Source: Granulicella sp. (GTDB lineage: Bacteria; Acidobacteriota; Terriglobia; Terriglobales; Acidobacteriaceae). Taken from it: a stretch of 33,276 bases of DNA. Both the position numbers and the translations under genes were made by a program. Location: assembly GCA_025359825.1 (NCBI GenBank), contig JANYER010000453.1:1-33276 (forward strand). Direction: 5' to 3'. Below the pieces are notes generated by a model, which was not told where the DNA came from, ran no database searches, and worked only from the letters and a program-made list of their open reading frames with translations. Positions 14,502 to 31,921 of this stretch are shown piece after piece. How positions within the stretch are numbered: position 1 is the first letter of the stretch; every line of letters begins with the position of its first letter.

Positions 14502-14512
14502 AGTCTTCCTCG

Positions 14513-15955: not shown

Positions 15956-16486
15956 TGGTAAACCCCTGTTTGCGCCAAATCCAGGCCAGGTGCCCCAGTT
16001 GGCGATACTCGTGGACCCAAAGGACGGTGGAATGACAATTGGAAACCACGTACTAACCATCTATCGTCACGATCGCCCCAGTGGTAAATCAAGTGCACGG
16101 TACTAGGGAAAACAAGTTCCAGATCGTGTGAAAAATAAAGAACGTTGGCAGAGAAGTGTTAACAATTTTGCTGACAAAAGAGATAAAGATTTTCTCTTTC
16201 CCTCTAAGAGTATTGCAAGCTTACATGCTATCGCTCTTCTTGTAGAGAGAAAAATGAGAAAATTATTGAAAGTTACCTTGGTAACAATTCGCCATATGAC
16301 TGATGAGGTATTGATAAACAGAGCGTCACAGCAAGAGTTTTTGCGGAAATCGGAACGCTTCTCTCAGAGACTAACCATAGTCATCAAGTATTTTTGTTGT
16401 ACAGGTTTAGTTGGAGGTCAACGTGCTCATATCTTTATGTTTGAGACTGCCCTACTGCTAGACCTTTGATAGGAAAAACGACCTTG
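15956..16486. promoter_or_regulatory. AT-rich divergent region between two sigma-54 activator genes
   Basis: These 531 bp are unusually AT-rich from about 16100 to 16450 compared with the flanking genes. The tracked 113-residue ORF (16128-16469) has AT-driven codons and no recognisable domain, so I regard the stretch as regulatory. It contains the perfect palindrome GTTACC-TT-GGTAAC at 16272-16285. Both divergent promoters should lie here; no clear -24/-12 pair was found. Confidence 0.5.
16272..16285. promoter_or_regulatory. Operator-like palindrome GTTACC-TT-GGTAAC
   Basis: A perfect 6-bp dyad with a 2-bp spacer, in the AT-rich region between the two activator genes. It is of a size that a Fis-type or other dimeric regulator could bind. 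The binding protein is unknown. Confidence 0.35.
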
Positions 16487-17581
16487 GTGCACAATAATGA
16501 GTCCGCTGCGTTGCTTAATCTGCCGCCGCTCGACATTATTTTCGGTAAAACTGCAGCAATGCAGGCCGTCCGAAATAAGTTGGAGAGGGTTGCAGAAACA
16601 GACGTGCCCGTCCTGATTCAAGGGGAGAGCGGTACAGGCAAAGAAATCTCTGTACGCCTTCTTCATGCCTTCTCGATGCGCGCACGCGGTTCACTTGTGA
16701 AGGTGAGCTGTCCAGCAATCCCAAACTCCTTGCTCGAGACCGAACTGTTCGGATACGAAAAAGGCGCATTTACCGGCGCAATGAGCACTAAACTCGGACG
16801 CGTCGAACAGGCCCATAACGGCACACTTTTTCTGGACGAAGTCGGCAGCCTCGACCTCGCTGTCCAGTCAAAGCTCCTCCAGGTGCTTCAGGATGGAACC
16901 TTTGTCCGCGTTGGCGGGCATGAGCCACGGTCCATTGCGACCCGCCTGGTCTCAGCCTCCAATGGAGACCTCCGCACCCAGGTGGAAGATGGTACCTTCC
17001 GGCTGGATTTCCTCTTCCGCATCAACGCCGTGACCATCAACCTGCCCCCTTTGCGGCAAAGAATTGCAGACCTGCCTGTCCTGATCGACTACTTCATCGA
17101 CTACTACGCAAAGGCCTTTCGCAACACCCCCGAACTGCTCTCCAAGAGTGCGGTCCGGCTGATGCAGAACTACCACTGGCCGGGAAACATCCGTCAGCTG
17201 GAAAACCTCATCCGCAGCTATGTGCTGATCGGCAGTGAAGAGGCGCTGGTCGCCGAACTGATGCCGGATGCACCGCGCAACGGTGGCATCACCACGGAGA
17301 TCGACCTCAGTGAGCCCGTCTCACTGAAGCGCATCACCAAGCAGGCCACCCAGGACCTCGAACGGCAGATCATCCTCAAAGTTCTACAGGCCAATAGCTG
17401 GAACCGTCAGAAAACGGCGAAGTGGCTCCAGATCAGCTACCGTTCCTTGCTGTATAAGCTCAGCGAAGCCGGTATGCCGGAGGTGCCACCCCGTCCGATT
17501 CGGCTTCCTCAAATGCTGAAGAAGTCCCCCGATGAACGTACTCTCAAGACGGCTCTCTCTTCCCGCACCCGGGTTTACTAA
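16487..17581 (+). CDS. Sigma-54-dependent activator without receiver domain
   Basis: About 364 residues. It consists of a short N-terminus, a sigma-54 AAA+ domain (about 20-255) and a Fis-type helix-turn-helix (about 300-345: LERQIILKVLQANSWNRQKT...LQISYRSLLYKL), followed by a basic, Pro-containing tail. Motifs present are GESGTGKE, GAFTGA (YEKGAFTGAMS), GTLFLDEVG and the WPGNIRQLENLIR sensor-2 region. There is no sensory domain, so activity must be set by expression level or a partner (PspF-like logic). No ATG is available: an in-frame stop at 16442 leaves TTG 16466, TTG 16484 or GTG 16487. I choose GTG 16487, with AGGAAAA upstream. The helix-turn-helix is very similar to that of the divergent regulator (ISYK/RxLLYK), so they may share targets. 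Confidence 0.88.
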   Translation: MHNNESAALLNLPPLDIIFGKTAAMQAVRNKLERVAETDVPVLIQGESGTGKEISVRLLHAFSMRARGSLVKVSCPAIPNSLLETELFGYEKGAFTGAMSTKLGRVEQAHNGTLFLDEVGSLDLAVQSKLLQVLQDGTFVRVGGHEPRSIATRLVSASNGDLRTQVEDGTFRLDFLFRINAVTINLPPLRQRIADLPVLIDYFIDYYAKAFRNTPELLSKSAVRLMQNYHWPGNIRQLENLIRSYVLIGSEEALVAELMPDAPRNGGITTEIDLSEPVSLKRITKQATQDLERQIILKVLQANSWNRQKTAKWLQISYRSLLYKLSEAGMPEVPPRPIRLPQMLKKSPDERTLKTALSSRTRVY

Positions 17582-17703: not shown

Positions 17704-19080
17704 TTACTGTGCGCCCTGGCGGCGAATGATGGTCTTGACTGTCTCGAACATGATCAGCAGGTCTAGGCCGAGCGTCATGTGTTTGATGTAGTAGAGGTCG
17801 AACTCCAGCTTTTCGCGGGCCTCTGCCAGCGTGGCTCCGTAGCCGTACCGTACCTGGGCCCAACCGGTCAGGCCGGGACGAATCATGTGGCGTAGCTCAA
17901 AGTAAGGAATCTTCTCCACCAGCATTGGGACAAATTCTGGACGTTCCGGCCGCGGGCCGACGAATCCCATGTCGCCGCACAGAACATTCCAGAGCTGCGG
18001 AAGCTCGTCCAGGCGCGTCTTGCGCATGAACATGCCGATCTTAGTGACGCGCGGATCGTTCTTGGTAGCCCATTTGGCGCCGGAGGCCTCTGCGTCCGTG
18101 CGCATGGTTCGGAACTTGTGCACCTTGAAGTTGCGCCCGTTCATGCCGACGCGCACCTGGTGGAAGAAGATGGGTCCGGGTGAGGAGAACCGCACCAACA
18201 ATATGAGGAAGGGTAGAAATGGCAGGGTGATCAGCAACCCAATCGCCGCAGTCAGGGTTGAGACCAGTCGGCGGGCGATCTGTTGTGACGGTTTGATGCG
18301 AAAGCCTTCGCTATAGATAAAGCTGCTGGGGCTCAGGCTGTTGAGGTGCAGTTTCCCGGTCAGGCGTTCGAGCAGGGTCGCGGCGTCTTCAACGACGATG
18401 CCGTTGAAGCGTAACTTAAGTAACTCTCTCACGGGAAGCTCGCCACGACGGTCCTCCACTGCAACGATGACCCGGTCGACGCCCGGCTTGAGGCCCATGA
18501 ACTGCTGGAGTGCCGATGCAAAGGCCTCCTTGCGCTGTTCCTTGTCGAAGGAAATCTCGTCCCAGCCCACTACCTCCATGCCTGCGTCTTTTCTGGTCCG
18601 CAGGGTCTGGACGACGGTCTGGGCGCGCTCCCCTGCGCCCAGCACATAGACCCGCTCGCGGAAGATCTCTCGTCCGATAATCCATTCGTAGGCACTGCGC
18701 CATGCCACCAGGGCGGCCGTCAGTAGCCCCAGCCCCAGCACCAGGACATATCGTCCCAGGTCGGCAGCAGGGAAGAAGTAGGTAATTGCAGAGAGCAGGA
18801 AAGAGAGAAAGCCAAGCACCAGCAGCAGCCGGAAGTAGATCTCCCAGCGCGCCGAGATGCGTTGGGGTTCGTACAGGTCGAAGTAGTAGGAGCTCAGCAG
18901 CGTGATAACGGTCAAGCCAAGTATTTTGTAAGCCCCGTACTCGTAGTTCAACACGAGATAGGTGTCTGGCCCCACCAGCGCCACCGTTGCCAGCAGGAAG
19001 GAGCCACTTACAATCAGCGCCTCACACAGCAGTAAAACGATGGTTCGGGTTGGGTAATACACGTTGAACAGCCGTATCAT
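17704..19080 (-). CDS. Exopolysaccharide polyprenyl glycosylphosphotransferase
   Basis: This 458-residue initiating transferase should move a sugar-1-phosphate from a nucleotide sugar to undecaprenyl phosphate at the inner membrane. There are four or five N-terminal membrane helices, a CoA-binding-like middle domain (REIFRERVYVLGAGERAQ), a further hydrophobic helix (ARRLVSTLTAAIGLLITLP) and the catalytic bacterial-sugar-transferase domain with KFRTMRTDAE, RKTRLDELPQLWNVLCGDM, GFVGPRPERPEF and RPGLTGWAQV. Its architecture matches the PEP-CTERM-associated EpsB-type subfamily (TIGR03013). I start at MIRLFNVYYP (19080), which is family-typical and preceded by AGGA. The frame is also open upstream to ATG 19173, overlapping the kinase end. 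It is the last gene of the minus-strand EPS operon. Confidence 0.92.
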   Translation of the reverse strand: MIRLFNVYYPTRTIVLLLCEALIVSGSFLLATVALVGPDTYLVLNYEYGAYKILGLTVITLLSSYYFDLYEPQRISARWEIYFRLLLVLGFLSFLLSAITYFFPAADLGRYVLVLGLGLLTAALVAWRSAYEWIIGREIFRERVYVLGAGERAQTVVQTLRTRKDAGMEVVGWDEISFDKEQRKEAFASALQQFMGLKPGVDRVIVAVEDRRGELPVRELLKLRFNGIVVEDAATLLERLTGKLHLNSLSPSSFIYSEGFRIKPSQQIARRLVSTLTAAIGLLITLPFLPFLILLVRFSSPGPIFFHQVRVGMNGRNFKVHKFRTMRTDAEASGAKWATKNDPRVTKIGMFMRKTRLDELPQLWNVLCGDMGFVGPRPERPEFVPMLVEKIPYFELRHMIRPGLTGWAQVRYGYGATLAEAREKLEFDLYYIKHMTLGLDLLIMFETVKTIIRRQGAQ

Positions 19081-19147
19081 TGCGTTTCCTGCTCCGTCCT
19101 GATTTGCGCCTACCTGGTTGCGACTCCTGGTTGTTGCTCCCTGATTG

Positions 19148-20110
19148 CTACCCCAGGTCTGCGTCGTATCCATAGTAGCCGCCAACCTGCGGCGGCTTCT
19201 CGACTGCATTCAGCACAAAGCCGAGCACGTTCGAGGCTTTAAGTTCGGACTGTGCCTTTTGCGCGACGGGGTACTTTGTCATGCCGCTGCGCGCCACCAG
19301 GATCACACCGTCGCAGGCACGCGCCAGGTTGACTCCGTCCGATACCGGCAAGACCGGTGAAGAGTCCACGATGATCCAGTCGAAGTGTGGTGCCGCAATT
19401 CGAATCAGCTCGCCAAATCGAGGATTGCCGGAGAGGTCCGCGGCCTTGTCGCCGCCGTTGCCGCCAGCGATAAAGGTAAGGTTCGGCAGAATAGCGGCTT
19501 TGACTTTATCGGATGCAGGGGCGTCTTCGGCACGCTGCATCACCTCCACGATCTCTGCTTTGCCGGCCAGATAGTCTGCCAGTCCGGGATGCGGTTGGCA
19601 GCCCAGCAGCTGGTGCAGCGTGTAGCGGCGCATGTCGCCATCGATCAGCAACACCTTGCTGTTTTTGTGGCGTGCCAGGCTGATGGCCAGATTAGTGGCC
19701 ACAAAGCTCTTGCCTTCCTGCGGCAGACCGCTGCTGATCATGATGGACTTCAACGGACTGATGTCGCGCAGTTCATGGATGCGCGATCGCAGACTGCGGA
19801 ACTGTTCCACGGCAGGGCCGCGCTCCAACAGGGCGGGTAGCTGGGAGTAGGTCGGTGTCCACGGATGCCTTGGAACGCGGCTCAGGTCCAGCGAGGAGGA
19901 AGCCTGTACGGGCGCCTTCTGTTCGGCCATCGGCTCACGGTAGATCTCAGGCTGCGCCAGAGGAGCGACCGGTGTCTGGTACTCCGCCACGGCTGCGGCC
20001 GAGCTGCGAGCGCTCGCTTCGTCATAGTCCGATCGGCGACTCACACGTTCGGCTCCGGCGGAGTTCCGCTCGGACTCTGCTTTCTGGAGTGCTTCGTAGA
20101 TTTTGCTCAT
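19148..20110 (-). CDS. CpsD/CapB-type tyrosine autokinase (BY-kinase), EPS locus
   Basis: The 320-residue cytoplasmic kinase should phosphorylate its own C-terminal tyrosines and cycle on and off the Wzz-type protein to control chain length. After a variable N-terminal linker (1-95) come the Walker A motif GLPQEGKS (128-135), Walker A' LLIDGDMRR (about 154-162) and Walker B WIIVDSSPV (about 245-253). The tail GGYYGYDADLG supplies Tyr312, Tyr313 and Tyr315, a short cluster compared with some BY-kinases. It resembles the PEP-CTERM locus tyrosine autokinase subfamily (TIGR03018). The kinase is a separate polypeptide from the Wzz-like membrane protein, as in CapA/CapB systems. The start ATG overlaps the ATPase stop as ATGA, indicating translational coupling. 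Confidence 0.92.
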   Translation of the reverse strand: MSKIYEALQKAESERNSAGAERVSRRSDYDEASARSSAAAVAEYQTPVAPLAQPEIYREPMAEQKAPVQASSSLDLSRVPRHPWTPTYSQLPALLERGPAVEQFRSLRSRIHELRDISPLKSIMISSGLPQEGKSFVATNLAISLARHKNSKVLLIDGDMRRYTLHQLLGCQPHPGLADYLAGKAEIVEVMQRAEDAPASDKVKAAILPNLTFIAGGNGGDKAADLSGNPRFGELIRIAAPHFDWIIVDSSPVLPVSDGVNLARACDGVILVARSGMTKYPVAQKAQSELKASNVLGFVLNAVEKPPQVGGYYGYDADLG

Positions 20111-21036
20111 CGGTCTTGTCTCCCATGGGGTTCGCCGTTGAAGGCTGGCATGTAGTTCGAAGGTTCACCTGAAGCATTCCTGGTTCCGTACCCGCCGCCC
20201 ATGGATGCGGTCGAGATTAGGAAGGGCTGTGTCTCCAGCTCCAACTCGGACGCTACGCCTTCGACCATGGCTGGTGTCACCTGCTGCACCTGCTCAACGT
20301 AGGCGACGATCAGGGTATGCTCGCATATCAGGTTGATGATGCGTGGAATTCCACGGCTGTAGCGATGGATCAGCTCCAGCGCCTCCGGGGGAAAGATCTG
20401 CCACGACGCTCCGGCGATTCTCAGGCGCTCTCCCACATACGCTTGTGTCTGGGCCTCGGTCAGCGGCTGGGTGCGGCACCACAGCGAGACGCGCTGGCGC
20501 AGTTGACGAACGCTGGGGTGGCGCAGCTTCTCTTCCAACTCAGGCTGGCCGGAGAGGACGATCTGCAACAGCTTCTCCGACGAGGTCTCCAGGTTGGTCA
20601 GCAGGCGAATCTCTTCCAGCAGGTCCCAGGAGAGATTCTGGGCTTCGTCCACCACCACCACGCAGGTTTCTTCCATGCGGAAGCGCTCAATCAGCCAGCG
20701 GTTCAACTGCAGCAACATGCCGGACTTCGTGCGCGTCGCAGGCACGAGGCCGAAATCGGTCAAGACAAACTCTAGGAAGTCCAGTACATCCAGTCGCGGG
20801 TTGAAGACGAACGCGGTCGAGACTCTCCGGTTGCTGAAAGAGCTCAACGCTCGTCGCAGCAATGTGGTCTTTCCGGTGCCAACCTCACCAGTCAGCACGG
20901 TAAAGCCCTTGCGTGCGGAGATGCCATACTCCAGGCAGGCCAGGGCCTCCCGCGTGTGCGGCATCATATAGAGGAAGCGCGGATCGGGGCTCGTCCCGAA
21001 CGGACTGCTCTGTAATTTGAAAAAGGCTTTATACAT
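20107..21036 (-). CDS. ExeA-like AAA ATPase, PEP-CTERM/EPS locus subfamily
   Basis: The 309-residue P-loop ATPase begins MYKAFFKLQSSPFGTSPDPRF, the signature opening of the ExeA/GspA-like 'putative secretion ATPase, PEP-CTERM locus' family (TIGR03015). Walker A is GEVGTGKTT (50-58), Walker B is VVVVDEAQ (126-133), and sensor regions follow (VLSGQPELEEKL, RIINLICE). The C-terminal 50 residues are Gly/Asn-rich and look disordered. Relatives couple ATP hydrolysis to assembly of envelope machinery; the precise role in EPS loci is unknown. It starts two bases after the stop of the Wzz-like gene and overlaps the BY-kinase by 4 bp, so the three are made together. Confidence 0.9.
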   Translation of the reverse strand: MYKAFFKLQSSPFGTSPDPRFLYMMPHTREALACLEYGISARKGFTVLTGEVGTGKTTLLRRALSSFSNRRVSTAFVFNPRLDVLDFLEFVLTDFGLVPATRTKSGMLLQLNRWLIERFRMEETCVVVVDEAQNLSWDLLEEIRLLTNLETSSEKLLQIVLSGQPELEEKLRHPSVRQLRQRVSLWCRTQPLTEAQTQAYVGERLRIAGASWQIFPPEALELIHRYSRGIPRIINLICEHTLIVAYVEQVQQVTPAMVEGVASELELETQPFLISTASMGGGYGTRNASGEPSNYMPAFNGEPHGRQDR

Positions 21037-21038
21037 GG

Positions 21039-22559
21039 TTAGCTACCTACATTCATCAGCGGGTTGTTCGCCGGTGCAATCTTTTCGCGTTTTGCGCCAG
21101 GCTTGTGCTTCTCGCGTTGTACGACGTCTGCGGCAATGGAGATGACAGCCAGCGTCGGCAGCTTTGTAAAGGCAAAGATGTCGCTCTCCGAGCGAACCGC
21201 GGTGTCCATATATTCGATCACTGCAATCACCAGCAGACCCAGCATCAGGCCTGCACCAAGTCCGCCGCCGAGGAACACACCACGCTTCGGGAACGAAGGT
21301 CCGTCGGGAAGGTTCGGTGCGTCCATGACCTTGAACTGCTCGCCCTGCTGACGGCGTTCCAGGTCTGTAGCCATCTTGGACTGGTTCATCTTGCCCAGCA
21401 GTTCGTCATAGAAGGCCTGTGCGGTCTGATAGTCGCGAGTAATTTGTTTGAAATCGGCCTGTACCGTTGGGCTCGAGGAGATACGGTCCTGATACAGCCG
21501 GAGCTGGTTCTGGATCGAGCTTTGGTCGCGCCGCTTCTGAACGATCATCTGTTCCACGGCACGAATCTGGGCACGAAGTTGCAGTATCCCAATAGGCTCC
21601 GGACCTTTGGCTGCAGAGGTCGTGGGGGCTGCGGCCGGCTGCGGCTTCGCCATGTTCGCGCGTAGCTCTCGAATCTTGCGGCGCACCGTCATTACATCCG
21701 GGTAGTCGTCGGTGTAGCGCGTCGTAAGGTCTGCTTCCTGGGCCAGCAGCGCCTGCAACTCCTGCTGTTGCGCCTGCGGCTGTACGCGCTGCTGGTCCGG
21801 GGCCGGCAGGTCTCGCGTCTGGGCGGAGAGCATCGCCTCCTCATAGGTCTTGTCCTGCTCCAACCGGGCCAGCGCCTGTGTGGCTGCATCCAGCTGGGTG
21901 TTCAGGCTGGTCATCATCTGCATGTTGCCGCCCTCTTCCCCGGGCAGTTTGCCAGCATAGGTACGCTGGAAGGCTGCGAGGCGTGCGTCCTGCTCATCCA
22001 GGTTGCGCTTGGCGTCTGCCAGTTGCTGCTTCAGGAACTCCATCGTGCCCTGGGCAGACTGCTCGCGTGCATGCAGGTTTTCGCTGACAAAGAGGGAGGT
22101 GATCTCACCGCAGACCTGCTGTGCTGTCTGGGCATCCCGGGCCTTGAACGAGATGAAGAATCCGGGGAGACCGCCCGTACGCGCGATCTGTGACTCAATC
22201 GGCTTGATTGCAATGTCCTTGCGCACCAGGTCGATGCGGCCGTCCATGCCCATCCCCTTTTGGTTATAGAGGTTGTATTTTTCGATGATGGGCTGCAGCC
22301 GCGAGCGGCTCAGGATCTGTTCCTGCATCGAAGCCAGGCGCGCATTCAGGTCTTCTGTCACGACCGGCTTCACGTAATCCGACGGAACCGCCTGCTGTTC
22401 GATCAGCACCAACGTCTGCGACATATAAATTGGCGTAACAAAGTACGTTGCCACAAATCCAACGATCGCGAAGATGGTCGCTGGTATAACTGCGATCCAC
22501 CAGCGCTTCTTCAATATCCGTAAATAGTCGTCTGTCGTAAGTGCGCGATGACCAAGCAT
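21039..22559 (-). CDS. Wzz/GumC-type polysaccharide chain-length determinant
   Basis: This inner-membrane polysaccharide co-polymerase has 506 residues. It has a first membrane helix at about 25-47 (WWIAVIPATIFAIVGFVATYFV) and a long periplasmic region with coiled coil (about 165-345, rich in Gln, Ala and Leu). A conserved segment follows before the second helix (about 428-449, VFLGGGLGAGLMLGLLVIAVIEY). The cytoplasmic tail is short, with no kinase domain; that activity is in the separate BY-kinase gene. It fits the PEP-CTERM-locus chain-length family (TIGR03007). AAGGAG sits 5 nt before the start, 9 bp after the upstream stop. It probably forms the bridge between the kinase and the outer-membrane export protein. 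Confidence 0.91.
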   Translation of the reverse strand: MLGHRALTTDDYLRILKKRWWIAVIPATIFAIVGFVATYFVTPIYMSQTLVLIEQQAVPSDYVKPVVTEDLNARLASMQEQILSRSRLQPIIEKYNLYNQKGMGMDGRIDLVRKDIAIKPIESQIARTGGLPGFFISFKARDAQTAQQVCGEITSLFVSENLHAREQSAQGTMEFLKQQLADAKRNLDEQDARLAAFQRTYAGKLPGEEGGNMQMMTSLNTQLDAATQALARLEQDKTYEEAMLSAQTRDLPAPDQQRVQPQAQQQELQALLAQEADLTTRYTDDYPDVMTVRRKIRELRANMAKPQPAAAPTTSAAKGPEPIGILQLRAQIRAVEQMIVQKRRDQSSIQNQLRLYQDRISSSPTVQADFKQITRDYQTAQAFYDELLGKMNQSKMATDLERRQQGEQFKVMDAPNLPDGPSFPKRGVFLGGGLGAGLMLGLLVIAVIEYMDTAVRSESDIFAFTKLPTLAVISIAADVVQREKHKPGAKREKIAPANNPLMNVGS

Positions 22560-22568
22560 AGTGACTCC

Positions 22569-23882
22569 TTAGAACCGGTTCAGTCGGACGGACCGGGGCG
22601 AAAATGTAATACCAGCACCCAGCGATTGCGACAAGCCACTGAAAGCGTTTTGACCGGTTAGGGCGCTCGGAATGGATTGGTGAATCGCGGTATAGCTGAC
22701 ATAAATGGAAAAGTTCTTTGCTATTCCTCGCGATACTTGGCCGCCACCATAAAAAGTAGAGGTGTCTCCTGCCTGGACCAGGCCGCTGGAGTGGGTGTAC
22801 GCGCCATTGAGGGACGTCGACCAGCTACGCCCCCAGCGACGCTGCACCTGCCCGGAGACGCTGTCCGCAAGGCTGCCGATCTGCACGCCCGAGCCGGAGT
22901 TCACGCCGCGGGAGTAGCTCAGCGAAGAGACGACATGCTGATGCGTCCAGGACAGTCCCACATTCGCCGCCAGATTCAAGCGGGAAGGAACGTTCGTGAT
23001 CACTGGCAGTCCGGACGACAGAGGGTAGGCCTGGAACCCACTCACCCACTGGGGCCCGACCGAAGCCTCCATCGAGACTTCCTTGGTCAGTTGACGGTTG
23101 TAGCCCAGGTTCACCCCGCGGGACTGGAAGGAACTAGAGTTATCGGCATAGGTGAACGTGGAGTAGACGCCGCTCACGTTCACGCTGCTGCGCCGGTCCA
23201 GTCGCCGATTCAAAGCCACCTGGCCGGAGATCTGGGTGCTCGAGACACCGTTGCCGTCGATAAACTTCAGAATGCCATAATTCCCGCCGCCACTGATCGA
23301 TGTCCGGCCATTCAACTTCCGCTCGATGTTGCCATTCAGGCCGTTACTGATCCGTCGGCCATAGTTGGTCAGTATGGTTTGGGCTGGGACATTGGGGTCT
23401 GGCAGCACCTGTAACCCCTGGTCGCCGACGCCAGCCACTCCCGAGAGCCCGGTCGTAGGGGATTGCGGAAGGTACGACACCGAGTCCGAGAAACCGAACG
23501 CCCACGGTCCCAGCACAAAACCCTGCGCTGCCGTCAGGCTTTGATACGTTGAAATCCCCTGTGCGCTATACGTGGAGTACAACATGCCACCCGAGTACAG
23601 CAGGGTAAAGGGTCGGTCCTTCTTGGGCGCGATGTACTCCACCGTGCCCGAGAGATTGGAGAGGTACGTACGACCGGACTGTCCGGAGTAGCCCCCGAAC
23701 TGCACGATCTCCGAGCCAGTCAAGGAGTACTGGAAGCTCCCGTCCATCAGTGGCAGGGCAGGGCCTGGGTTGTACGCAGGTTCACTGGACACTCCGGCAG
23801 GCGCGGCCTGCCCGTAGACGCGCAGGCTGGAGAGCGCCAGAACCGCAAGCATCGCTATCGATGTCTTCACGGGACACCTCAT
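22569..23882 (-). CDS. Predicted outer-membrane beta-barrel protein of the EPS operon
   Basis: I do not recognise a named family with certainty. The 437-residue protein has a signal peptide (MRCPVKTSIAMLAVLALSS, cleavage near VYGQA) and a mature chain of alternating polar/hydrophobic strands, many starting or ending in aromatic residues (VSMEASVGPQWVSGF, SIYVSYTAIHQS, LGAGITFSPRS). It ends in Phe, as outer-membrane barrels do. Ser, Gly and Thr are abundant and Cys is absent after the signal. The position between the Wza-type and Wzz-type genes matches the uncharacterised PEP-CTERM-locus outer-membrane proteins. A likely role is a secretion pore or barrel partner for export, which is inferred. 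It overlaps the export gene by ATGA. Confidence 0.8.
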   Translation of the reverse strand: MRCPVKTSIAMLAVLALSSLRVYGQAAPAGVSSEPAYNPGPALPLMDGSFQYSLTGSEIVQFGGYSGQSGRTYLSNLSGTVEYIAPKKDRPFTLLYSGGMLYSTYSAQGISTYQSLTAAQGFVLGPWAFGFSDSVSYLPQSPTTGLSGVAGVGDQGLQVLPDPNVPAQTILTNYGRRISNGLNGNIERKLNGRTSISGGGNYGILKFIDGNGVSSTQISGQVALNRRLDRRSSVNVSGVYSTFTYADNSSSFQSRGVNLGYNRQLTKEVSMEASVGPQWVSGFQAYPLSSGLPVITNVPSRLNLAANVGLSWTHQHVVSSLSYSRGVNSGSGVQIGSLADSVSGQVQRRWGRSWSTSLNGAYTHSSGLVQAGDTSTFYGGGQVSRGIAKNFSIYVSYTAIHQSIPSALTGQNAFSGLSQSLGAGITFSPRSVRLNRF

Positions 23883-24625
23883 GGAACCACGATCGTATCG
23901 CCGGGCTGCAGCGTAATCAACTGCTTACTGTCACCCTTCAGGGCCGCCTTGTAGTTGAAGGGAATTTTCACCTGTTTACCTTGTAGTCCACGCAAAATGT
24001 AGATACGTTTGGAGTTAGCAAAGGTAGAGAGCCCTCCGGCCGAGGCGATCGCCTGCAGCGGCGTCATCCCCGGAGACAACATCAAAGGCCCAACCTTGCC
24101 AATCTCGCCGATCATAAAAATACGCTGACTATTAACCGCTGTCACGACTACGGATACGCTTGGGTCCTGAATGAACTTCTTCAGCCGATTCGCAATATCG
24201 GCGCCTAACTGGATCGGGGTCAGGCCTGCTGCCGGAATATCCCCCGCCAGTACCATGGAAATGTTGCCATCCGGACGCACCGGAACCACGCCGGAGAGTG
24301 TGGGCTCACGCCACACCGTGATCTGTAACTGGTCATCTGCGCCGATCACGTAGCTGGCCGCGTTGACACTTGCGAGGACTTGGGGGGTCGGCGGCGGAGG
24401 GGTATCCACGGTGGCGGGGGTAGAGCTTGTTGCGGGTGCCGGTGTTGCGGGCATGCTCGCCGCAGGGGGAGCGGTAGTCGTCGTCGCTGGCTTCGTATCC
24501 TGCGCAAGGGCGCCGGTGGCACACATGGACAACAGGAGCAACGATTGAAGTACGGTCGAAGTCGCGCCGCGCAGCTGCGTGGTGCTGGTAACTTCCTTAT
24601 TCATCATAGGATTAGCCTTCATCAT
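23879..24625 (-). CDS. Wza-type polysaccharide export protein (SLBB domain)
   Basis: The 248-residue exported protein should contribute to the periplasmic/outer-membrane EPS channel. It has a signal peptide (LLLLSMCATGALAQ), a Pro/Thr/Ala-rich linker (about 43-85), then the polysaccharide-export domain (VIGADDQLQITVWREPTLSGVVPVRPDGNISM, about 92-180), and an SLBB domain (IFMIGEIGKVGPLMLSPGMTPLQAIASAGG, about 168-245) ending LQPGDTIVVP. The one Cys in the signal region is preceded by Met, so it is not a good lipobox; the ALA-Q site suggests ordinary cleavage. It is shorter than E. coli Wza and fits the PEP-CTERM subfamily. Several ATGs are possible (24625, 24622, 24607, 24604); 24607 has the better-placed AAGG. 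It is the first gene of the operon. Confidence 0.88.
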   Translation of the reverse strand: MMKANPMMNKEVTSTTQLRGATSTVLQSLLLLSMCATGALAQDTKPATTTTAPPAASMPATPAPATSSTPATVDTPPPPTPQVLASVNAASYVIGADDQLQITVWREPTLSGVVPVRPDGNISMVLAGDIPAAGLTPIQLGADIANRLKKFIQDPSVSVVVTAVNSQRIFMIGEIGKVGPLMLSPGMTPLQAIASAGGLSTFANSKRIYILRGLQGKQVKIPFNYKAALKGDSKQLITLQPGDTIVVP

Positions 24626-24712
24626 CTCGTTTCAGTCCAATAATCGTTCGGTAGGTCTCTCGGTCTTGCCGCTCTCCGATTTCATTCGAACGGTACTTCC
24701 CGTTGAAGTTCC

Positions 24713-24728
24713 TGCACAACAATCGCCA
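24713..24728 (-). promoter_or_regulatory. Candidate sigma-54 -24/-12 promoter for the EPS operon
   Basis: On the minus strand the site reads TGGCGATTGTTGTGCA: TGGC, correct 10-nt GG-to-GC spacing, then TGCA. It would start RNA about 75 nt before the export gene. The match is partial (-12 is GTGC, not TTGC) and such spacing occurs by chance every few hundred bases; the nearby sigma-54 activators raise its plausibility. Confidence 0.35.
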
Positions 24729-24800
24729 AACTACGTCATCAAACCACTCCAGGGAAAGTATTTACCAAAAAACTGCAATTTCCCTACAATCAGTTCGTAC

Positions 24801-24816
24801 TGGTCCATCCTTTGCC
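24801..24816 (+). promoter_or_regulatory. Candidate sigma-54 -24/-12 promoter toward the exosortase operon
   Basis: TGGTCCATCCTTTGCC has TGG and TTGC with the correct 10-nt GG-to-GC spacing. The leader to the exosortase GTG would be about 200 nt. The -24 half lacks the preferred CAC/CAT. Low to moderate support. Confidence 0.3.
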
Positions 24817-25027
24817 TATGGACGGCAACGTGCATCCACTGTCCAGGAAACAGATGCAACCCGTAATGTGCAGACTAGCAGCCAGAGTAGAAAAATCTTT
24901 CCTTTTTTGTGGACTCGTAACTACCACTTTGGTAGACCTTTCCTTTGACCCGCTTTGGAATAGACTCCTCAAAGCAGGGAATTGGATGTTTCGTTCGGCA
25001 TAGAATATTGCTTCTTACAGAGGACAT

Positions 25028-26029
25028 GTGAAGTATATCGTTCCAGCAACAACAACAGGCAGTACACAGACAGAGCCCTACGCGCAACAGGCGGCCAGTT
25101 CTGTCGGCGATGGACTTGCTTATGCCGAACAGCTCCAGGATTTCGGAACGCCCGCGACTGGCGTAGAACACAGTTTGTACTCGCCCGCCGGACCTCGCGA
25201 GTGGCTCCCCTACGTCGCGATCGCTCTACTATTGGCTTTCGTATACTTCCGTGTGGTCGCGAAGCTGGTCTTCGATTGGTACGATCTGCCCGACTACTCC
25301 CACGGCTTTCTCGTCCCCTTCTTTGCCGTCTTCGTCCTGTGGGACAACCGTACCGTACTACGGAATACCCCGGTTCGCGCCACCTGGAGCGGTCTTCCTT
25401 TGGTCCTCTTCGGTATCGTCGTGGTCATTCTTGGCGTCTACGGGGCAGACCTCTTCCTCTCCCGCATCTCGTTCCTCATCCTCCTCGCCGGCATCATCTG
25501 GACGTTCTTCGGTCGCGCTATGCTGGTGGCCCTGCGATTCCCGCTCTTTGTCCTGCTGCTGGCTATCCCGTTTCCCGCCATCGTCTTCAATCAGATCACC
25601 TTCCCGCTCCAGCTATTTGCCTCCCGGGTGGCAAGCGCCATTCTGCCGCTGCTCGGAGTTCCGGTCCTGAATGAGGGCAATGTCATCGAATTGCCAGTGA
25701 TGAAGCTGGAGGTCGCCGAGGCTTGCAGTGGCATCCGTTCCTTGATGAGCCTCTTTACCCTGGCCGTCTTTTATGGCTACTTTCTGGAGCGCACCACCAA
25801 ACGACGCGTTGTCCTCGCCATCGCCAGCATCCCAATTGCCGTCGCAGCCAATGCGGCGCGCATCGTTGGTACCGGCCTCTGCGTTCAGTACTGGGACCCG
25901 GAGAAGGCAATGGGCTTCTTCCATGAGTTCTCTGGATGGGTCATGTTTGTTATCTCTCTGGGGTGCCTGTATATCCTGCACCGGATCATGCGTGTGGTCG
26001 TCCCGCCGCCTGTCGAGGTAAAAGCCTGA
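25028..26029 (+). CDS. Exosortase (EpsH/XrtA-type transpeptidase-like membrane protease)
   Basis: The 333-residue polytopic membrane protein should recognise PEP-CTERM-type sorting signals and cleave or transfer the protein at the inner membrane. After a soluble N-terminal stretch of about 58 residues there are around eight membrane helices. The catalytic triad is in place: Cys233 in EACSGIRSL, Arg278 in AANAARIVGTG and His299 in FFHEFSGW. Other family marks are WYDLPDYSHGFLVPFFA and IPFPAIVFNQITFPLQ. It lacks the fused EpsI domain; EpsI is the next gene, overlapping by one base (TGATG). The start is GTG with AGAGGA just upstream. No protein with a PEP-CTERM tail is encoded in this window, so its substrates lie elsewhere. 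The exact subtype (XrtA or a related class) is not certain. Confidence 0.93.
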   Translation: MKYIVPATTTGSTQTEPYAQQAASSVGDGLAYAEQLQDFGTPATGVEHSLYSPAGPREWLPYVAIALLLAFVYFRVVAKLVFDWYDLPDYSHGFLVPFFAVFVLWDNRTVLRNTPVRATWSGLPLVLFGIVVVILGVYGADLFLSRISFLILLAGIIWTFFGRAMLVALRFPLFVLLLAIPFPAIVFNQITFPLQLFASRVASAILPLLGVPVLNEGNVIELPVMKLEVAEACSGIRSLMSLFTLAVFYGYFLERTTKRRVVLAIASIPIAVAANAARIVGTGLCVQYWDPEKAMGFFHEFSGWVMFVISLGCLYILHRIMRVVVPPPVEVKA

Positions 26030-26715
26030 TGAAATACCCTCGTTTCTGGACCATATCTCTCCTTTTATTAGCAACTGCGCTTTTGCTGCACTCCCGCGGC
26101 GACAAGGACAACGTTCCCTCCAGTCAGCCTCTTAGTCAGATGCCGCAGACCATTGGCGTGTGGACCTCCAGGGATATCGCCATGCAGGACGATGTTCTTG
26201 CCATCCTGGGTAAAGGTGACTTCCTCAACCGCCTCTACACCGGACCCGCGGTCCTGCCGGAACCGGGCGTGGAGAAGGTGTCCGTCCCCACCCGGTCGGA
26301 CGTCCCGATCAGCCTGTTCATTGGGTATTTCGCTTCACAGCGCACCGGCCAGTCCATCCACTCGCCTCAAAATTGTCTGCCCGGCGCTGGTTGGAACTTT
26401 GAGTCTTCGCGCTACACCACTCTGACGGCCGATAACGGCAAGGTCTTTACCGTTGGCGAGTACGTTATCAGCGACGGCAATACCAAGCAGTTCGTCCTGT
26501 ACTGGTACCAGGCACACGGGCGTAGCATTGCCAATGAGTATAAGGCAAAGCTATATATGATCGCCGACGCAATTCGCATGAACCGCACCGATGGAGCGAT
26601 CGTCCGCGTCATTACACCGGTCATGCCGCTGGAGTCTATTGCAACCGCACGCAACCGGGTCGTCCGGTTTACCAGCGAGATGGCACCGGTGCTGCCTCGC
26701 TTCATTCCCGACTAG
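26029..26715 (+). CDS. epsI: EpsI-family exosortase-associated protein
   Basis: The 228-residue protein is anchored by one N-terminal helix (MKYPRFWTISLLLLATALLL) with the rest in the periplasm. It matches the EpsI family that is either fused to or encoded beside exosortases: FIGYFASQRTGQSIHSPQNCLPGAGW (about 95-120) and the FVLYWYQAHGRS segment (about 155-166). Its biochemical role is unknown, although it is needed for EPS in Methylobacillus-type systems (general knowledge). I start at ATG 26029, which overlaps the exosortase stop as TGATG; the tracked 25936 start runs inside the exosortase gene. An internal LPEPG is not at the C-terminus and is not a sorting signal. Confidence 0.9.
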   Translation: MKYPRFWTISLLLLATALLLHSRGDKDNVPSSQPLSQMPQTIGVWTSRDIAMQDDVLAILGKGDFLNRLYTGPAVLPEPGVEKVSVPTRSDVPISLFIGYFASQRTGQSIHSPQNCLPGAGWNFESSRYTTLTADNGKVFTVGEYVISDGNTKQFVLYWYQAHGRSIANEYKAKLYMIADAIRMNRTDGAIVRVITPVMPLESIATARNRVVRFTSEMAPVLPRFIPD

Positions 26716-26805
26716 GCGGATGCGGGTCAACACGATCAGTAGAAGAAATACGAAATACAACTCGCAGTATGCAAGGCAGAATGAGTCTTTTGAGGAAAAT
26801 TGGTC

Positions 26806-29103
26806 ATGAAAAAAACGATATATAAGGCAGCCCTTCGGGTTCTGGCAGCTCTGACTGTTTCATTGATTCTTGGAACCTCTCTCGGCTGTCATCGTGACCC
26901 GAACGTGCAGAAGCAGAAGTACCTGGAGAGTGGAAAGCGCTACTTCGAGGATGCCAAGTACAAGGAAGCGACCATCCAGTTCTCTAACGCGCTCAAGGTC
27001 GACCATAACTTTGCCGAGGCCCACTACGAGCTTGCCAAGACCTTCCTGAAGACGAACTCCATGCTGCAGGCCTATGCAGAGCTGATGCGTACGGTCGATT
27101 TACAGCCCAATAACGTCGCTGCCCGCATCGATCTTGGCAACATGCTGTTGGCCGGCAATCAGGCACAGCGCGCTGTCGATCAAGCCAATGCTGTCCTTGC
27201 TCTGCAACCCAATAACGGCGACGCCCACGCACTGCTTTCGAGCGTTGCTGCTGCCAAAGGCGACCGGGCCGGGGCCCTGGCTGAGATTCAAAAAGCGCTG
27301 GAGATCGACCCCAAAAAAGCAAACTACCACGCTGCGCTTGGACTTATCCAAAGCTCCGACCCGACCGCCGGGGCCGCTGCGGAAGATCAGCTTCGCAAGG
27401 CGGTCGAACTCGACCCCAAAAACGCTACGGTTCATCTGGTACTTGCCAGCCTGCTGGAGCGGAAGGGCGATACGAATGCGGCCATCGAGCAGTTGAAAGC
27501 AGGCATCGCTGCCGATCCGAAGAGCATTCAGGCCCGGGGCGCCCTTGTGGGCATATACATGCGCCAGGGTGACAAGGCCCAGGCAGAGCAGACGGTTCGC
27601 CAGGCAGCCGATGATCTTCCCGACTCGCCCCAAGCCGCCCAGATGTTGAATAGCTATTACATCCAGACGAAACAGTTGGACAAGGCCCTTCCCATAGTCG
27701 CCGACCTCGTAACGAAGCACCCAAAGAGCACATCGCTTAAGGTGATGTACGCACGTCTCCTGATCTCCAATAAGGAGTATCCCAAGGCCAGGACCATCAT
27801 CACCGACCTGGTCAAATCCGACCACAACGATCCTGATGTCGTCGTCCTCAACGGCATGATGTTGATCGATGACAAGAAGATCAACGAAGCGGTCGATGTG
27901 CTGCAGAAGTCCTCCAAGAACAATCCCGAGAATCTACAGCTCAAACTCTGGCTGGGCCGCGCAGCAACCGCTAAGGGCGATACAGCCCTTGCCGAACAGA
28001 GCTATCGCGATGCGACTCGCATCAATCCGAAGAGCGTCGAGGCCCAGGAAGGTCTCGGGCAAATGGCATTGCTGAAGCATGACTATAGTTTGCTGACCCA
28101 GGTCGCGGAAGCCACCATGGCTATTGTGCCGCAGTACTCTAATCCATACATCTGGCGCGGTGTCGCCGAGCTGGCCAACAAGCAGGCCGACAAAGCCGAG
28201 GCCGACTTCAGGCAAGCCCTCAAGCTCAATCCCCAGGACGCGAACGCGACTCTGGAACTCGCCCAGCTTCAGCTATCCCAGAACCACATCCCACAGGCCA
28301 AAGAGTTGCTCCAGCAGACCTTGACCAGCAATCCCAACTCAGTCCGCGCTCTTCAGCTTCTGGTGTCACTGGATCTCTACGAGAAACAACCCGCCAAGGC
28401 AATCGCACGGATTCAGGATCAGATCGCCAAATCCACACCCAATAGCCAGATGTACGACCAGCTCTCGGAGGTCCAGTTAGCCACAGGCGATACTAAGGGC
28501 TCTCTTCAATCAGCCGAGACGGCGATGAAGATGAACCCGCAGGATGCGGGCGCAATCTCGGCATATACGCGTGCGCAGGTGGCCTCCGGAGATGTTGGAA
28601 AAGCCATCGGAGTCTGGCAGGAATGGATCAAGACCCATCCCACCGACGCCCAAGCCTATGCTCTCCTCGGCTCGCTGGAGGAATCCCGCGGCAATAAAGA
28701 TGCAGCCACTGCCAACTACAAGAAGGCTCTCCAGTATCAGCCGGAGCAGCCGGTCGCCTCCAACAACCTCGCTTACCTGATGATCGAGAGCGGGCAGAAT
28801 CTTGACGTGGCACTCTCTCTCGCGCAGACTGCTCGCCGTGCGCTCCCGGATTCACCCAGTACTGCTGACACGCTCGGCTGGGCTCTTTACAGTAAAGGCT
28901 CCTACTTCGCCGCGCGCGATCAGTTTGAAGAGGCCCTCAAGACAGCACCCAACAATGTGTCGCTCCACTATCACCTCGGCATGACCTACCTCAAAACCGG
29001 AGACCAGACCAACGCCTCCACCCACTTGAAAAAGGCAGTTACCCTGGACCCCAATGGCACCATAGGCAAAGATGCCCAGAAGGCGCTTTCAGGGGTTGCT
29101 TAG
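26806..29103 (+). CDS. PrsT-like TPR-repeat lipoprotein of the exosortase/EPS locus
   Basis: The 765-residue predicted lipoprotein has the signal sequence MKKTIYKAALRVLAALTVSL and a lipobox GTSLGC with the lipidated Cys at about 28. Almost all the rest is tetratricopeptide repeats (some 18-20 helix pairs), for example YFEDAKYKEATIQFSNALKVD, AEDQLRKAVELDPKNATVHLVLA and AEADFRQALKLNPQDANATLELAQLQL. It matches the PEP-CTERM system TPR-repeat lipoprotein family (PrsT), which probably scaffolds the envelope export machine. I start at 26806 because GAGGAAA lies about 10 nt upstream; ATG 26800 is also possible. It is 90 bp after epsI and is the last gene before a strong hairpin. Confidence 0.92.
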   Translation: MKKTIYKAALRVLAALTVSLILGTSLGCHRDPNVQKQKYLESGKRYFEDAKYKEATIQFSNALKVDHNFAEAHYELAKTFLKTNSMLQAYAELMRTVDLQPNNVAARIDLGNMLLAGNQAQRAVDQANAVLALQPNNGDAHALLSSVAAAKGDRAGALAEIQKALEIDPKKANYHAALGLIQSSDPTAGAAAEDQLRKAVELDPKNATVHLVLASLLERKGDTNAAIEQLKAGIAADPKSIQARGALVGIYMRQGDKAQAEQTVRQAADDLPDSPQAAQMLNSYYIQTKQLDKALPIVADLVTKHPKSTSLKVMYARLLISNKEYPKARTIITDLVKSDHNDPDVVVLNGMMLIDDKKINEAVDVLQKSSKNNPENLQLKLWLGRAATAKGDTALAEQSYRDATRINPKSVEAQEGLGQMALLKHDYSLLTQVAEATMAIVPQYSNPYIWRGVAELANKQADKAEADFRQALKLNPQDANATLELAQLQLSQNHIPQAKELLQQTLTSNPNSVRALQLLVSLDLYEKQPAKAIARIQDQIAKSTPNSQMYDQLSEVQLATGDTKGSLQSAETAMKMNPQDAGAISAYTRAQVASGDVGKAIGVWQEWIKTHPTDAQAYALLGSLEESRGNKDAATANYKKALQYQPEQPVASNNLAYLMIESGQNLDVALSLAQTARRALPDSPSTADTLGWALYSKGSYFAARDQFEEALKTAPNNVSLHYHLGMTYLKTGDQTNASTHLKKAVTLDPNGTIGKDAQKALSGVA

Positions 29104-29397: not shown

Positions 29398-30735
29398 CTA
29401 ACGATAAGCAGGATGGGCCGCCAGCGTTGCCGTAGCGTCTACCTCGTCCACCGGCACATGGGGGCTATCGCTCACCATCAGGTACTCCGCCCTCACCGCT
29501 ACGCCCACGAGTACCCAAAGCAGCCCGGTGATCTCCAGGTAAGTCCATCGGTCACCAAAGCAATTGGCGACGATACACGCGATCACAGCCAAAAAAACCC
29601 CTAGACCAAGCCCTTTGTATAGGGGGTCGTCCGCCTTTTTGAACACTCTGTACCCCAGCGCCAGCATCTGCTGCAGCATCAAAGCCGCCATTGCAAGGCC
29701 AATCAAACCCGTTTCTACCGCTACCTTCACGTACCAGTTGTGGGTGTCTTTCAGATTGTCAGTATGTTGCCCCAGTTGGAAGGTGGCATACCCCATTCCG
29801 ACGATTGGACTGCTAAAGAACTCATCCTGGGCCGCAGTCCACAGATTGACCCTCTCCTGGGCAGAATCTTCCAATTGACCATTCTGGCCTTGAGTCATAT
29901 TCACGCGTTGGGTTACTGCGGTGGGCAGAACAACCTGCCAGGTAAAAATGAATACAAGCAGAAACACCAACAATTTACGGTCCTTCAAAATCGCCAAAGC
30001 AAGGACCGCAACCAAAAGGGCAGCGTACGATCCGCGGGAGAATGTGTACAGCGTAGCAACCGTCGTGATTCCCACCAGCGAATAGCAAAGCAGCTTCACT
30101 TTGATTCGCTTCATAAACTGCCCAAAGCCCCAGAAGAACATGACAAATTGGGCAAAGAACGCGGCCGTTTGATTCGAGCCATACCCCAACGGGCCACCGC
30201 TTCGCTTGCTCTCGTCAAAGTTGGTCCAGCTGCGCGACAAGCTCTCCATCAGAAAGCTTCGATCAATAAAGAGGACCGAAATTCCAGTCAGCAAAATCAC
30301 GGTTCGAGCCGCTTTTCTGTCTTCGACCACCATGCCCGTCGCCGCAAAGATCAGCGGAATCAGCATGTAGTCTTTCCAGGTTACGAAGTTGATGTCTGAA
30401 AGCCATAGAGGAGCTGGAGCATTGCCCAGCATAGTCCCCAGCCACATCGACATATACAGATACACGCCAAAGACAAACCAGATGACATAGAGTTTGGATT
30501 TGGGGAGATGCTTTCCGTAGATCAAGCCGCCAATCAGCACCGCTACGATCAAGATGGTCAGCACATTTCCGCCCAACGGATAGTCTAGGAAGTGGTCACG
30601 CATCGTACGGTAGGGAAGAAACGGGATCATGTAATACAGCCCATAAAGCGGCTTTCCGGCCAGCGACCACAAGGACATCACCCAGAAGCCCAGGTATGCA
30701 ATCAGCGGGATGTAGTGTCCAATTCCTGTTCCCAA
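29398..30735 (-). CDS. O-antigen ligase / polymerase-like membrane protein
   Basis: The 445-residue protein has about 11-12 membrane helices and a large periplasmic loop. It fits the Wzy_C/O-antigen-ligase superfamily, most like the 'putative O-glycosylation ligase, exosortase-associated' group (TIGR03097). The motif-bearing loop includes YTFSRGSYAAL (Arg234), ERVNLWTAAQDEFFSSPIVGMGYATF and DTHNWYVKVAVETGLIGLAM (His332), which are the expected functional positions. It should polymerise or transfer lipid-linked glycan on the periplasmic side. The start codon is TTG at 30735, supported by AGAGGA about 8 nt upstream. The final 30 residues are soluble. It is 76 bp downstream of the glycosyltransferase gene, probably in the same transcript. 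Confidence 0.88.
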   Translation of the reverse strand: MGTGIGHYIPLIAYLGFWVMSLWSLAGKPLYGLYYMIPFLPYRTMRDHFLDYPLGGNVLTILIVAVLIGGLIYGKHLPKSKLYVIWFVFGVYLYMSMWLGTMLGNAPAPLWLSDINFVTWKDYMLIPLIFAATGMVVEDRKAARTVILLTGISVLFIDRSFLMESLSRSWTNFDESKRSGGPLGYGSNQTAAFFAQFVMFFWGFGQFMKRIKVKLLCYSLVGITTVATLYTFSRGSYAALLVAVLALAILKDRKLLVFLLVFIFTWQVVLPTAVTQRVNMTQGQNGQLEDSAQERVNLWTAAQDEFFSSPIVGMGYATFQLGQHTDNLKDTHNWYVKVAVETGLIGLAMAALMLQQMLALGYRVFKKADDPLYKGLGLGVFLAVIACIVANCFGDRWTYLEITGLLWVLVGVAVRAEYLMVSDSPHVPVDEVDATATLAAHPAYR

Positions 30736-30811: not shown

Positions 30812-31921
30812 CTAGCTCCACAGCTTCTTTCGGCCTGCGACAAAATTGTAGAACGCCATCGCAGCTGCTGCATTCAACATCACAAATGTATTCGCAATGG
30901 CAACAGGCTTTAGGCTCTTAGCGGACGGAATGCCTTCGCCCAACAGCGCCAGTAGATAAAACACCACCTGCAGTCCAAAGATGCCCCAATACAGCGGGCT
31001 ATGCGCCAGCGCTGCCGACACCACCATTACCACCAGCAACAGAGGCACCATCAACCGCAGCAGCTTATGGCTCACCAATCGAAACAGCAGCGGATTGGCT
31101 GGCGTAATCATCCACGGCGCAAGCTGCAGCAGTTGGTAGTTCCCGGTCAGGGTGCGAACCTTCCGTGAAAATTCTTTGCCCTTCTCGCTGAACAGTTGGT
31201 CCCGCGCAATCGCCCGCGGCTCAAAGATCACCCGCTTGCCCTGCCGTGCCACCTGCATCGGCACCCAGACGTCATCCAGCAGCGTCCCCGCCGGGATCGC
31301 AACATATAGTTCGCGCCGCATCGCATAGATCGCGCCCGTCACTCCGACCACTGATCCCGTCGCCGACTCCAGCTTCCGCACCAGCTTTTCAATCTTCCAG
31401 TACAGCCCCAGCGCGTTGTTCGCCGCCTTGCCTGGGCTGGACTCCAGCAGCAACTCGCCGCTCACAGCACCCACCTCCGCATCGGCAAAGCATGACACCA
31501 TCTCCTTCACCGCCGAGACATCGACGTTCTGTCGCGCATCCAGAAACACCAGCACGTCGCCCGTCGCATGCTGCACCGCGGCATTCAAAGCAGCAGCCTT
31601 GCCGCCCGAGCTTTCCAGCACCACCGGGACCACATTGGGTCCGGAAGCTCTTAAAATGGCTACGCTCTCGTCCGTCGAACCGTCCGATGCAATCACGATC
31701 TGCACCAGTTCCGGCGGATAGTCCATCTGCCGAAGGTTCTCCAGCTTGGCTGGCAAATTTCGCGCCTCATTGCGTGCGGCGATAACGATTGAAATGGTGG
31801 GGAAGATCGGACTACGCGCAACCGGACGGCGTCGCAGACGCACCAAGCCGGCAAGCAGCACCGCATAGCCAAAGTAGGCGTACACCACAACGCCAAATGA
31901 TGCCCAGAAAAGTAGACTCAC
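30812..31921 (-). CDS. Family 2 membrane glycosyltransferase
   Basis: The 369-residue processive-type GT-A glycosyltransferase probably adds sugars to the lipid-linked EPS intermediate on the cytoplasmic face. An N-terminal helix (about 5-27) precedes the catalytic domain: ISIVIAARNEARNL (about 43), ASDGSTDES with Asp80, the metal-binding FLDAR (Asp128), and the base-region LLDDVWVP (Asp216/Asp217). The Q/RxxRW-type site is replaced by RKVRTLTGNYQ, so it is not a standard cellulose-synthase type. Three or four helices follow at the C-terminus (about 285-360). The start is GTG at 31921 with GAGG about 7 nt upstream. It is divergent from the flippase gene and likely co-transcribed with the ligase-like gene. 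Confidence 0.9.
   Translation of the reverse strand: MSLLFWASFGVVVYAYFGYAVLLAGLVRLRRRPVARSPIFPTISIVIAARNEARNLPAKLENLRQMDYPPELVQIVIASDGSTDESVAILRASGPNVVPVVLESSGGKAAALNAAVQHATGDVLVFLDARQNVDVSAVKEMVSCFADAEVGAVSGELLLESSPGKAANNALGLYWKIEKLVRKLESATGSVVGVTGAIYAMRRELYVAIPAGTLLDDVWVPMQVARQGKRVIFEPRAIARDQLFSEKGKEFSRKVRTLTGNYQLLQLAPWMITPANPLLFRLVSHKLLRLMVPLLLVVMVVSAALAHSPLYWGIFGLQVVFYLLALLGEGIPSAKSLKPVAIANTFVMLNAAAAMAFYNFVAGRKKLWS

Follow-up and report, generated by a model that had tools for sequence, protein, structure and literature searches.

Results and discussion

Gene content of the locus

The stretch of DNA analysed here (the window) is a 33,276-nucleotide contig (C318) from a Granulicella sp. 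metagenome-assembled genome (MAG) of 3.71 Mb in 483 contigs, 85.8% complete, whose nearest named relatives by sequence are Acidobacteriaceae, Edaphobacter and Granulicella among them. The window carries an exosortase together with genes for the synthesis and export of extracellular polysaccharide (EPS), and the analysis concerns this locus, the PEP-CTERM cargo proteins encoded elsewhere in the same genome, and the sigma-54 promoter and palindrome found upstream of the cargo genes. Profile searches placed nine genes, spanning positions 17704-29103, in two divergent operons, six on the minus strand (24625-17704) and three on the plus strand (25028-29103), as the original prediction for this DNA had proposed; the gene identities that it offered are supported also.

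The minus-strand operon begins with a short, Wza-like OPX export protein (23879-24625; Poly_export and SLBB domains, TIGR03027 138 bits against a cut-off of 180, EpsY 115 bits) and an outer-membrane beta-barrel protein with a signal peptide (22569-23882). These are followed by a Wzz-type chain-length determinant (21039-22559; TIGR03007, 232.9 bits, cut-off 278.9), an ExeA-like ATPase of the XrtA-system type (20107-21036; TIGR03015, 288.1 bits, cut-off 324.5), a BY-kinase (19148-20110; TIGR01007, 114.3 bits, cut-off 108) and the polyprenyl glycosylphosphotransferase EpsB_2 (17704-19209; TIGR03013, 435.9 bits, cut-off 393). The plus-strand operon encodes a 333-residue XrtA/XrtD-like exosortase (25028-26029), EpsI (DUF3485; 26029-26715; PF11984 178.2 bits, TIGR02914 126.9 bits against a cut-off of 42.8) and the TPR lipoprotein PrsT (26800-29103; TIGR02917, 372.9 bits, cut-off 312.2). 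The ATG of epsI at 26029, taken directly from the sequence, overlaps the exosortase stop codon. Two markers of XrtA-type EPS loci, EpsB_2 and PrsT, thus exceed their cut-offs, and the XrtA-system models for the ATPase, chain-length, export and tyrosine kinase proteins were matched below theirs (288/324.5, 233/279, 138/180 and 111/231 bits, respectively). The locus is a complete protein-sorting and EPS-export system, of a sorting and export type that is already known.

The barrel gene had been left unnamed by the original prediction and found no family match in profile searches; genes corresponding to it occupy this position in approximately 40 related loci. Its AlphaFold model has 18 strands (mean pLDDT 70.8), and the top Foldseek matches were all outer-membrane barrels, including the alginate exporter AlgE, with modest scores (E ∼1e-6, TM ∼0.45). 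Only Poly_export and SLBB domains were found in the OPX protein, which has no Wza_C pore domain, and the barrel is a probable partner for it, the short OPX gene adjoining that for a barrel with 18 strands in the predicted model. The same pairing of a short OPX gene with an 18-stranded, AlgE-like barrel is known from EpsY/EpsX of Myxococcus (PMC9601211) and from class 3 OPX proteins (PMC9603273). Unlike EpsY/EpsX, the pair in the window sits inside an exosortase locus, and is read from genes and a predicted model; the main texts of these two papers mention neither Acidobacteria nor exosortases.

Classification of the exosortase

The exosortase scored 251.7 bits against PF09721 and 194.5 bits against TIGR02602, exceeding the cut-offs of these profiles, and the Cys, Arg and His residues noted in the original prediction proved to be invariant (Cys233, Arg278, His299) across 32 aligned exosortases. 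The start of the exosortase (GTGAAGTAT) is kept in most close relatives, as revealed by footprinting. No solved relative was found by sequence. Against the XrtA model (TIGR03109) the protein scored 200.2 bits, close to yet under the cut-off of 208, and against the N-terminal part of XrtD 224.9 bits (cut-off 400), rising to 392 bits when exosortase and EpsI were joined in silico. XrtD and XrtW resemble the present system in pairing an exosortase with EpsI but are fused, whereas the window has two separate genes, and XrtD cargo bears VPLPA tags instead of the VPEP/TPEP tags seen here. On its sequence scores the enzyme is best called XrtA/D-like and left unassigned.

A 76-row tree placed the window exosortase in a supported set of 30 rows, mostly from Acidobacteriaceae, in all of which EpsI is separate; fused exosortase-EpsI forms occupy scattered positions elsewhere, and the deep joins are unsure owing to long branches. 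A split EpsI was considered as the mark of a separate class and rejected, since fused and split forms are intermixed in the tree. The original prediction was correct that EpsI is separate from the exosortase, but the contrast that it drew with fused XrtA forms does not hold: in NCBIfam it is XrtD and XrtW that are modelled as fusions, and the 261 positions of the XrtA model include nothing of EpsI.

PEP-CTERM cargo proteins

Neither whole-genome profile searches nor a scan of the tails of window open reading frames revealed a PEP-CTERM tag on any window protein, as had been predicted. The accompanying proposal that the targets are encoded elsewhere was supported by searching the proteome of the same MAG, in which 14 proteins exceed the Pfam PEP-CTERM cut-off and a 15th falls just under it. 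These have the tripartite form, combining a VPEP-type tag with a hydrophobic segment and a basic terminus, and nearly all have a signal peptide; most are without other domains, exceptions including the putative adhesive domain pAdhesive_15 and CHRD. The suggestion that a locus without a nearby substrate is unusual was not supported, as scattered cargo is ordinary, PEP-CTERM genes being mostly in single-gene operons (Haft et al. 2006; PMC1569441).

The absence of a tagged protein from the window would suit an exosortase that stands alone, without proteins to sort, which is the case that the original prediction had named as its refutation. With 14 or more PEP-CTERM proteins in the MAG, and between 6 and 21 in each of the 12 named Acidobacteriaceae genomes checked that have this exosortase, that explanation is already refuted and is left with next to no probability. 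Across 60 genomes of the family, exosortase and PEP-CTERM proteins occur together in 30, the exosortase alone in five, PEP-CTERM proteins alone in one and neither in 24 (p = 7e-11). G026 encodes the activator pair described below and 16 PEP-CTERM proteins but has no exosortase match at 97% completeness, so that either the assembly has a gap or the sorting enzyme is one that escapes recognition. G046 has two full exosortases (contigs C10 and C21; 230 and 219 bits) and no PEP-CTERM match, and a variant tag is possible there.

The MAG encodes a second exosortase, XrtJ (656 bits; contig C99, L012:1237-3057), which has a long C-terminal extension and whose gene is followed by one for an NHL-like protein without a tag. 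XrtJ rather than the window exosortase might process the PEP-CTERM cargo, given that it is in the same genome and that one PEP-CTERM gene lies on its contig. However, PEP-CTERM genes are present in 25 of the 26 family genomes with a strong PF09721 match (at least 196 bits), and in five of the nine that have weaker exosortase matches only, where they are mostly few; this explanation is considered unlikely. A search of one literature collection found no publication on the sorted surface proteins of Acidobacteriota.

Sigma-54 promoter and palindrome upstream of cargo genes

Upstream regions of 83 PEP-CTERM genes were compared with 360 other intergenic upstream regions in an unbiased spaced-trinucleotide (dyad) scan. 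The top dyad, TGG-N9-TGC, is the core of the sigma-54 -24/-12 promoter and occurred in 46/83 versus 42/360 regions (p = 2e-16). The second signal was a palindrome, TGCAA-N4-TTGCA, present at nine or more of ten matches in 36/83 versus 9/360, a comparison with some circularity, the consensus having been derived from these very regions. The two single-motif definitions were then frozen before application to a hold-out set of 68 PEP-CTERM genes from 12 other genomes; an earlier hold-out, beside exosortase loci, was dropped as its seven PEP-CTERM genes gave no power. The palindrome was recovered in 17/68 hold-out genes versus 9/360 (p = 4e-9) and the sigma-54 promoter in 35/68 versus 48/360 (p = 4e-11). 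A joint rule, which required both motifs in order at a distance of 20-100 bp and for which somewhat relaxed thresholds were set together with the test, gave 23/68 versus 4/360 (p = 1e-16), against a mean of 0.16 for dinucleotide shuffles; when the hold-out proteins were clustered, 15 of the 39 clusters had the joint module. A -24/-12 sigma-54 promoter is thus found before many PEP-CTERM genes in these genomes.

The distances from palindrome to promoter group around 40, 51, 61, 72 and 82 bp, with a period of ∼10.5-10.9 bp (p ∼1e-4), i.e. a roughly helical phasing. A strict pattern, applied genome-wide to 15 genomes, returned approximately 66 module matches versus 14 for a reversed control. Of the 64 sites that were inspected, 24 precede a listed PEP-CTERM gene, against an expectation of ∼0.1%; others lie before genes whose identities were read by eye from the sequence, namely two more PEP-CTERM genes, one for an acyltransferase, one for an epimerase resembling GalE and further genes of surface type. 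Many upstream regions seem to be rich in AT, and the motifs could in principle reflect chance or base composition. This is very improbable in view of the hold-out result, the comparison with 360 other upstream regions, the dinucleotide shuffles, the test by clusters of related cargo proteins and the phasing of the spacers. Exact palindrome counts per genome are no more than mildly informative, as genomes negative for PEP-CTERM hold a few too. On the strength of the motifs, sigma-54 control combined with this palindrome appears to be a new variant, not described before for the phylum Acidobacteriota, and a search of the same literature collection found no publication on PEP-CTERM regulation in Acidobacteria.

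Two similar Ser/Asn/Thr-rich, secreted-looking proteins (L297:908-2317 and L298:657-2294), the former without a Pfam match, are encoded after a palindrome/sigma-54 module and may be surface proteins that belong to this regulon. In the MAG, one PEP-CTERM gene (L014, G000:C312) is an open frame without a signal-peptide start, probably through a frameshift or assembly error, and has a perfect TGCAA-N4-TTGCA upstream (C312:2281-2294).

Signs of sigma-54 control, which the original prediction had not noticed, extend to the window. A sigma-54 promoter, TTTGGCGATTGTTGTGC, reads into the OPX-EPS operon (24714-24730, minus strand), its TTTGGCA...GTGC being kept in 16 of 17 aligned sequences, that of the window included. 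Footprinting located a sigma-54-like element before the exosortase (24997-25011, plus strand), with the form GG-N10-GC in most relatives. Two strand-neutral elements between the operons are conserved in the footprint also, namely a palindrome, CTACCA-N3-TGGTAG (24921-24935), and an inverted repeat, GGAAAA/TTTTCC (24890-24902).

Candidate activators

A divergent pair of sigma-54 activator genes adjoins the locus. The first (14513-16060, minus strand; Sigma54_activat 219.6 bits, HTH_8) has a degenerate receiver (Response_reg 30.3 bits, cut-off 30.2) in which the phospho-acceptor Asp is replaced by Ala, with Ala or Val in relatives (Val in L127 and L131). The second (16466-17581, plus strand; Sigma54_activat 203.8 bits, HTH_8 36.7 bits) has no Response_reg match. 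The pair flanks the locus in 12 named relatives, and lies on its opposite side in L127 and L131. Orthologues of the receiver-less activator occur in ∼40 of the 60 family genomes, together with PEP-CTERM proteins in 28, without them in 12, with three genomes having PEP-CTERM proteins alone and 17 neither (p = 6e-5). Activator orthologues also adjoin PEP-CTERM genes in three genomes (G026, G051 and G038). On this synteny and co-occurrence the pair are the likely activators of the cargo promoters, and we infer that they bind TGCAA-N4-TTGCA. The MAG has rpoN, the gene being cut by a contig end.

The palindrome may instead be bound by another regulator, the pair being a conserved neighbour with a different job. 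Most genomes hold several other sigma-54 activators, the pair is present in 12 family genomes that are negative for PEP-CTERM, and the window divergon lacks the palindrome. Set against these points are the co-occurrence of the pair with PEP-CTERM proteins, its position beside the locus in 12 named relatives and on the opposite side in L127 and L131, and its proximity to PEP-CTERM genes in the three genomes named above. Another regulator is accordingly a real possibility, judged to fall somewhat short of an even chance.

With regard to the input, none of the 60 family genomes reached the PrsK cut-off of 300 bits (best 118), and a PrsK-like kinase was rejected since the matches were to the generic kinase domain only. 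Against the PrsR model the activators scored 298.7 and 270.4 bits, far below the cut-off of 502.6. Neither activator can be phosphorylated at the canonical receiver Asp, and hence a kinase of the PrsK type is unlikely to provide the input. By analogy with FleQ and VpsR, the degenerate receiver and the presence of a GGDEF gene near the pair (12515-13747) prompt the guess that c-di-GMP may serve as the input. The chances seem evenly balanced that PEP-CTERM and EPS genes in Acidobacteriota are under a rewired sigma-54 control, in which a PrsK/PrsR phosphorelay is lacking and a phosphorylation-independent divergent pair reads TGCAA-N4-TTGCA before cargo genes, the signal perhaps being c-di-GMP or another small ligand.

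A DUF6982 gene (14013-14612) overlaps that for the degenerate-receiver activator and lies near the same gene in the same-genus genome G034 (64% identity). Many of the distant Acidobacteriota loci (L114-L133) have a different receiver-less sigma-54 activator (∼320 residues) between the OPX and exosortase genes. Beyond prsT, the window encodes a Wzy_C O-antigen ligase/polymerase-like protein (29398-30735, minus strand; PF04932 66 bits, TIGR03097 44.2 of 188), which is probably a polymerase or ligase, and a GT2 glycosyltransferase with weak PgaC-type matches (30812-31921, minus strand), the gene for which adjoins the O-ligase gene in several close relatives.

Proposed mechanism

The locus would make, export and load a surface polysaccharide. 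EpsB_2 would start the polymer on a lipid carrier, Wzz and the BY-kinase would set chain length, and the polymer would exit via the short OPX protein joined to the predicted 18-stranded barrel in the outer membrane. The exosortase, assisted by EpsI and PrsT, would cut the C-terminal PEP-CTERM tag from cargo encoded elsewhere, a putative reaction for which the catalytic residues and the cargo are both present. Judging from the promoters, sigma-54 RNA polymerase at the -24/-12 elements of many PEP-CTERM genes and of the OPX operon may ensure that cargo and EPS genes are expressed together. An activator presumed to occupy the palindrome, the site and spacing of which were observed, would sit on the right helical face ∼40-95 bp upstream and open the cargo promoters.

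Several observations weigh against this scheme. Approximately two thirds of cargo genes have no clear joint module, and cargo start codons were chosen by a signal-peptide heuristic. TGCAA-N4-TTGCA is missing from the window divergon, the one near match in the window being in coding sequence and at chance level, and the exosortase-side element has the spacing GG-N11-GC in the window, off by one. The activator pair is found also in 12 family genomes without PEP-CTERM matches, and XrtJ could take some of the cargo. Additionally, confidence in the barrel model is intermediate, the exosortase model (pLDDT 77) gave no PDB fold match, and the MAG is incomplete. Nevertheless, the explanation as a whole, comprising EPS synthesis and export, cargo sorting and shared sigma-54 control by the flanking pair, is considered probable.

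Comparison with known systems and significance

The system described by Haft et al. (2006; PMC1569441) likewise comprises an exosortase, EpsI, PrsT, EPS genes and scattered cargo, with a sigma-54 promoter and an upstream activator site before the cargo genes. There, the sigma-54 cis-motif was found only in Proteobacteria and was tied to PrsK/PrsR; here, PrsK is lacking in 60 genomes, and the activators fall below the PrsR cut-off and have no working phospho-receiver. The activator sites before cargo genes differ also, the palindrome TGCAA-N4-TTGCA here versus the proteobacterial motif 1 ending in TTTACA. In Aquincola, floc formation by PepA/PrsT is RpoN-dependent, and a sigma-54-driven PEP-CTERM gene beside prsT helps to keep EPS cell-bound (PMC9850573). 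Aquincola is a proteobacterium, whereas the present system belongs to a different phylum and has its own site; PEP-CTERM genes with sigma-54 promoters are common to both.

Acidobacteriota rank with the most common bacteria of soil, and many of them produce EPS in abundance. The analysis provides a list of cargo proteins, a cis-signature with which cargo and glycan genes may be found from DNA alone, and two candidate activators. It touches, moreover, on a point left open by Haft et al. (2006; PMC1569441), namely that further regulators and motifs of PEP-CTERM systems remained to be found.

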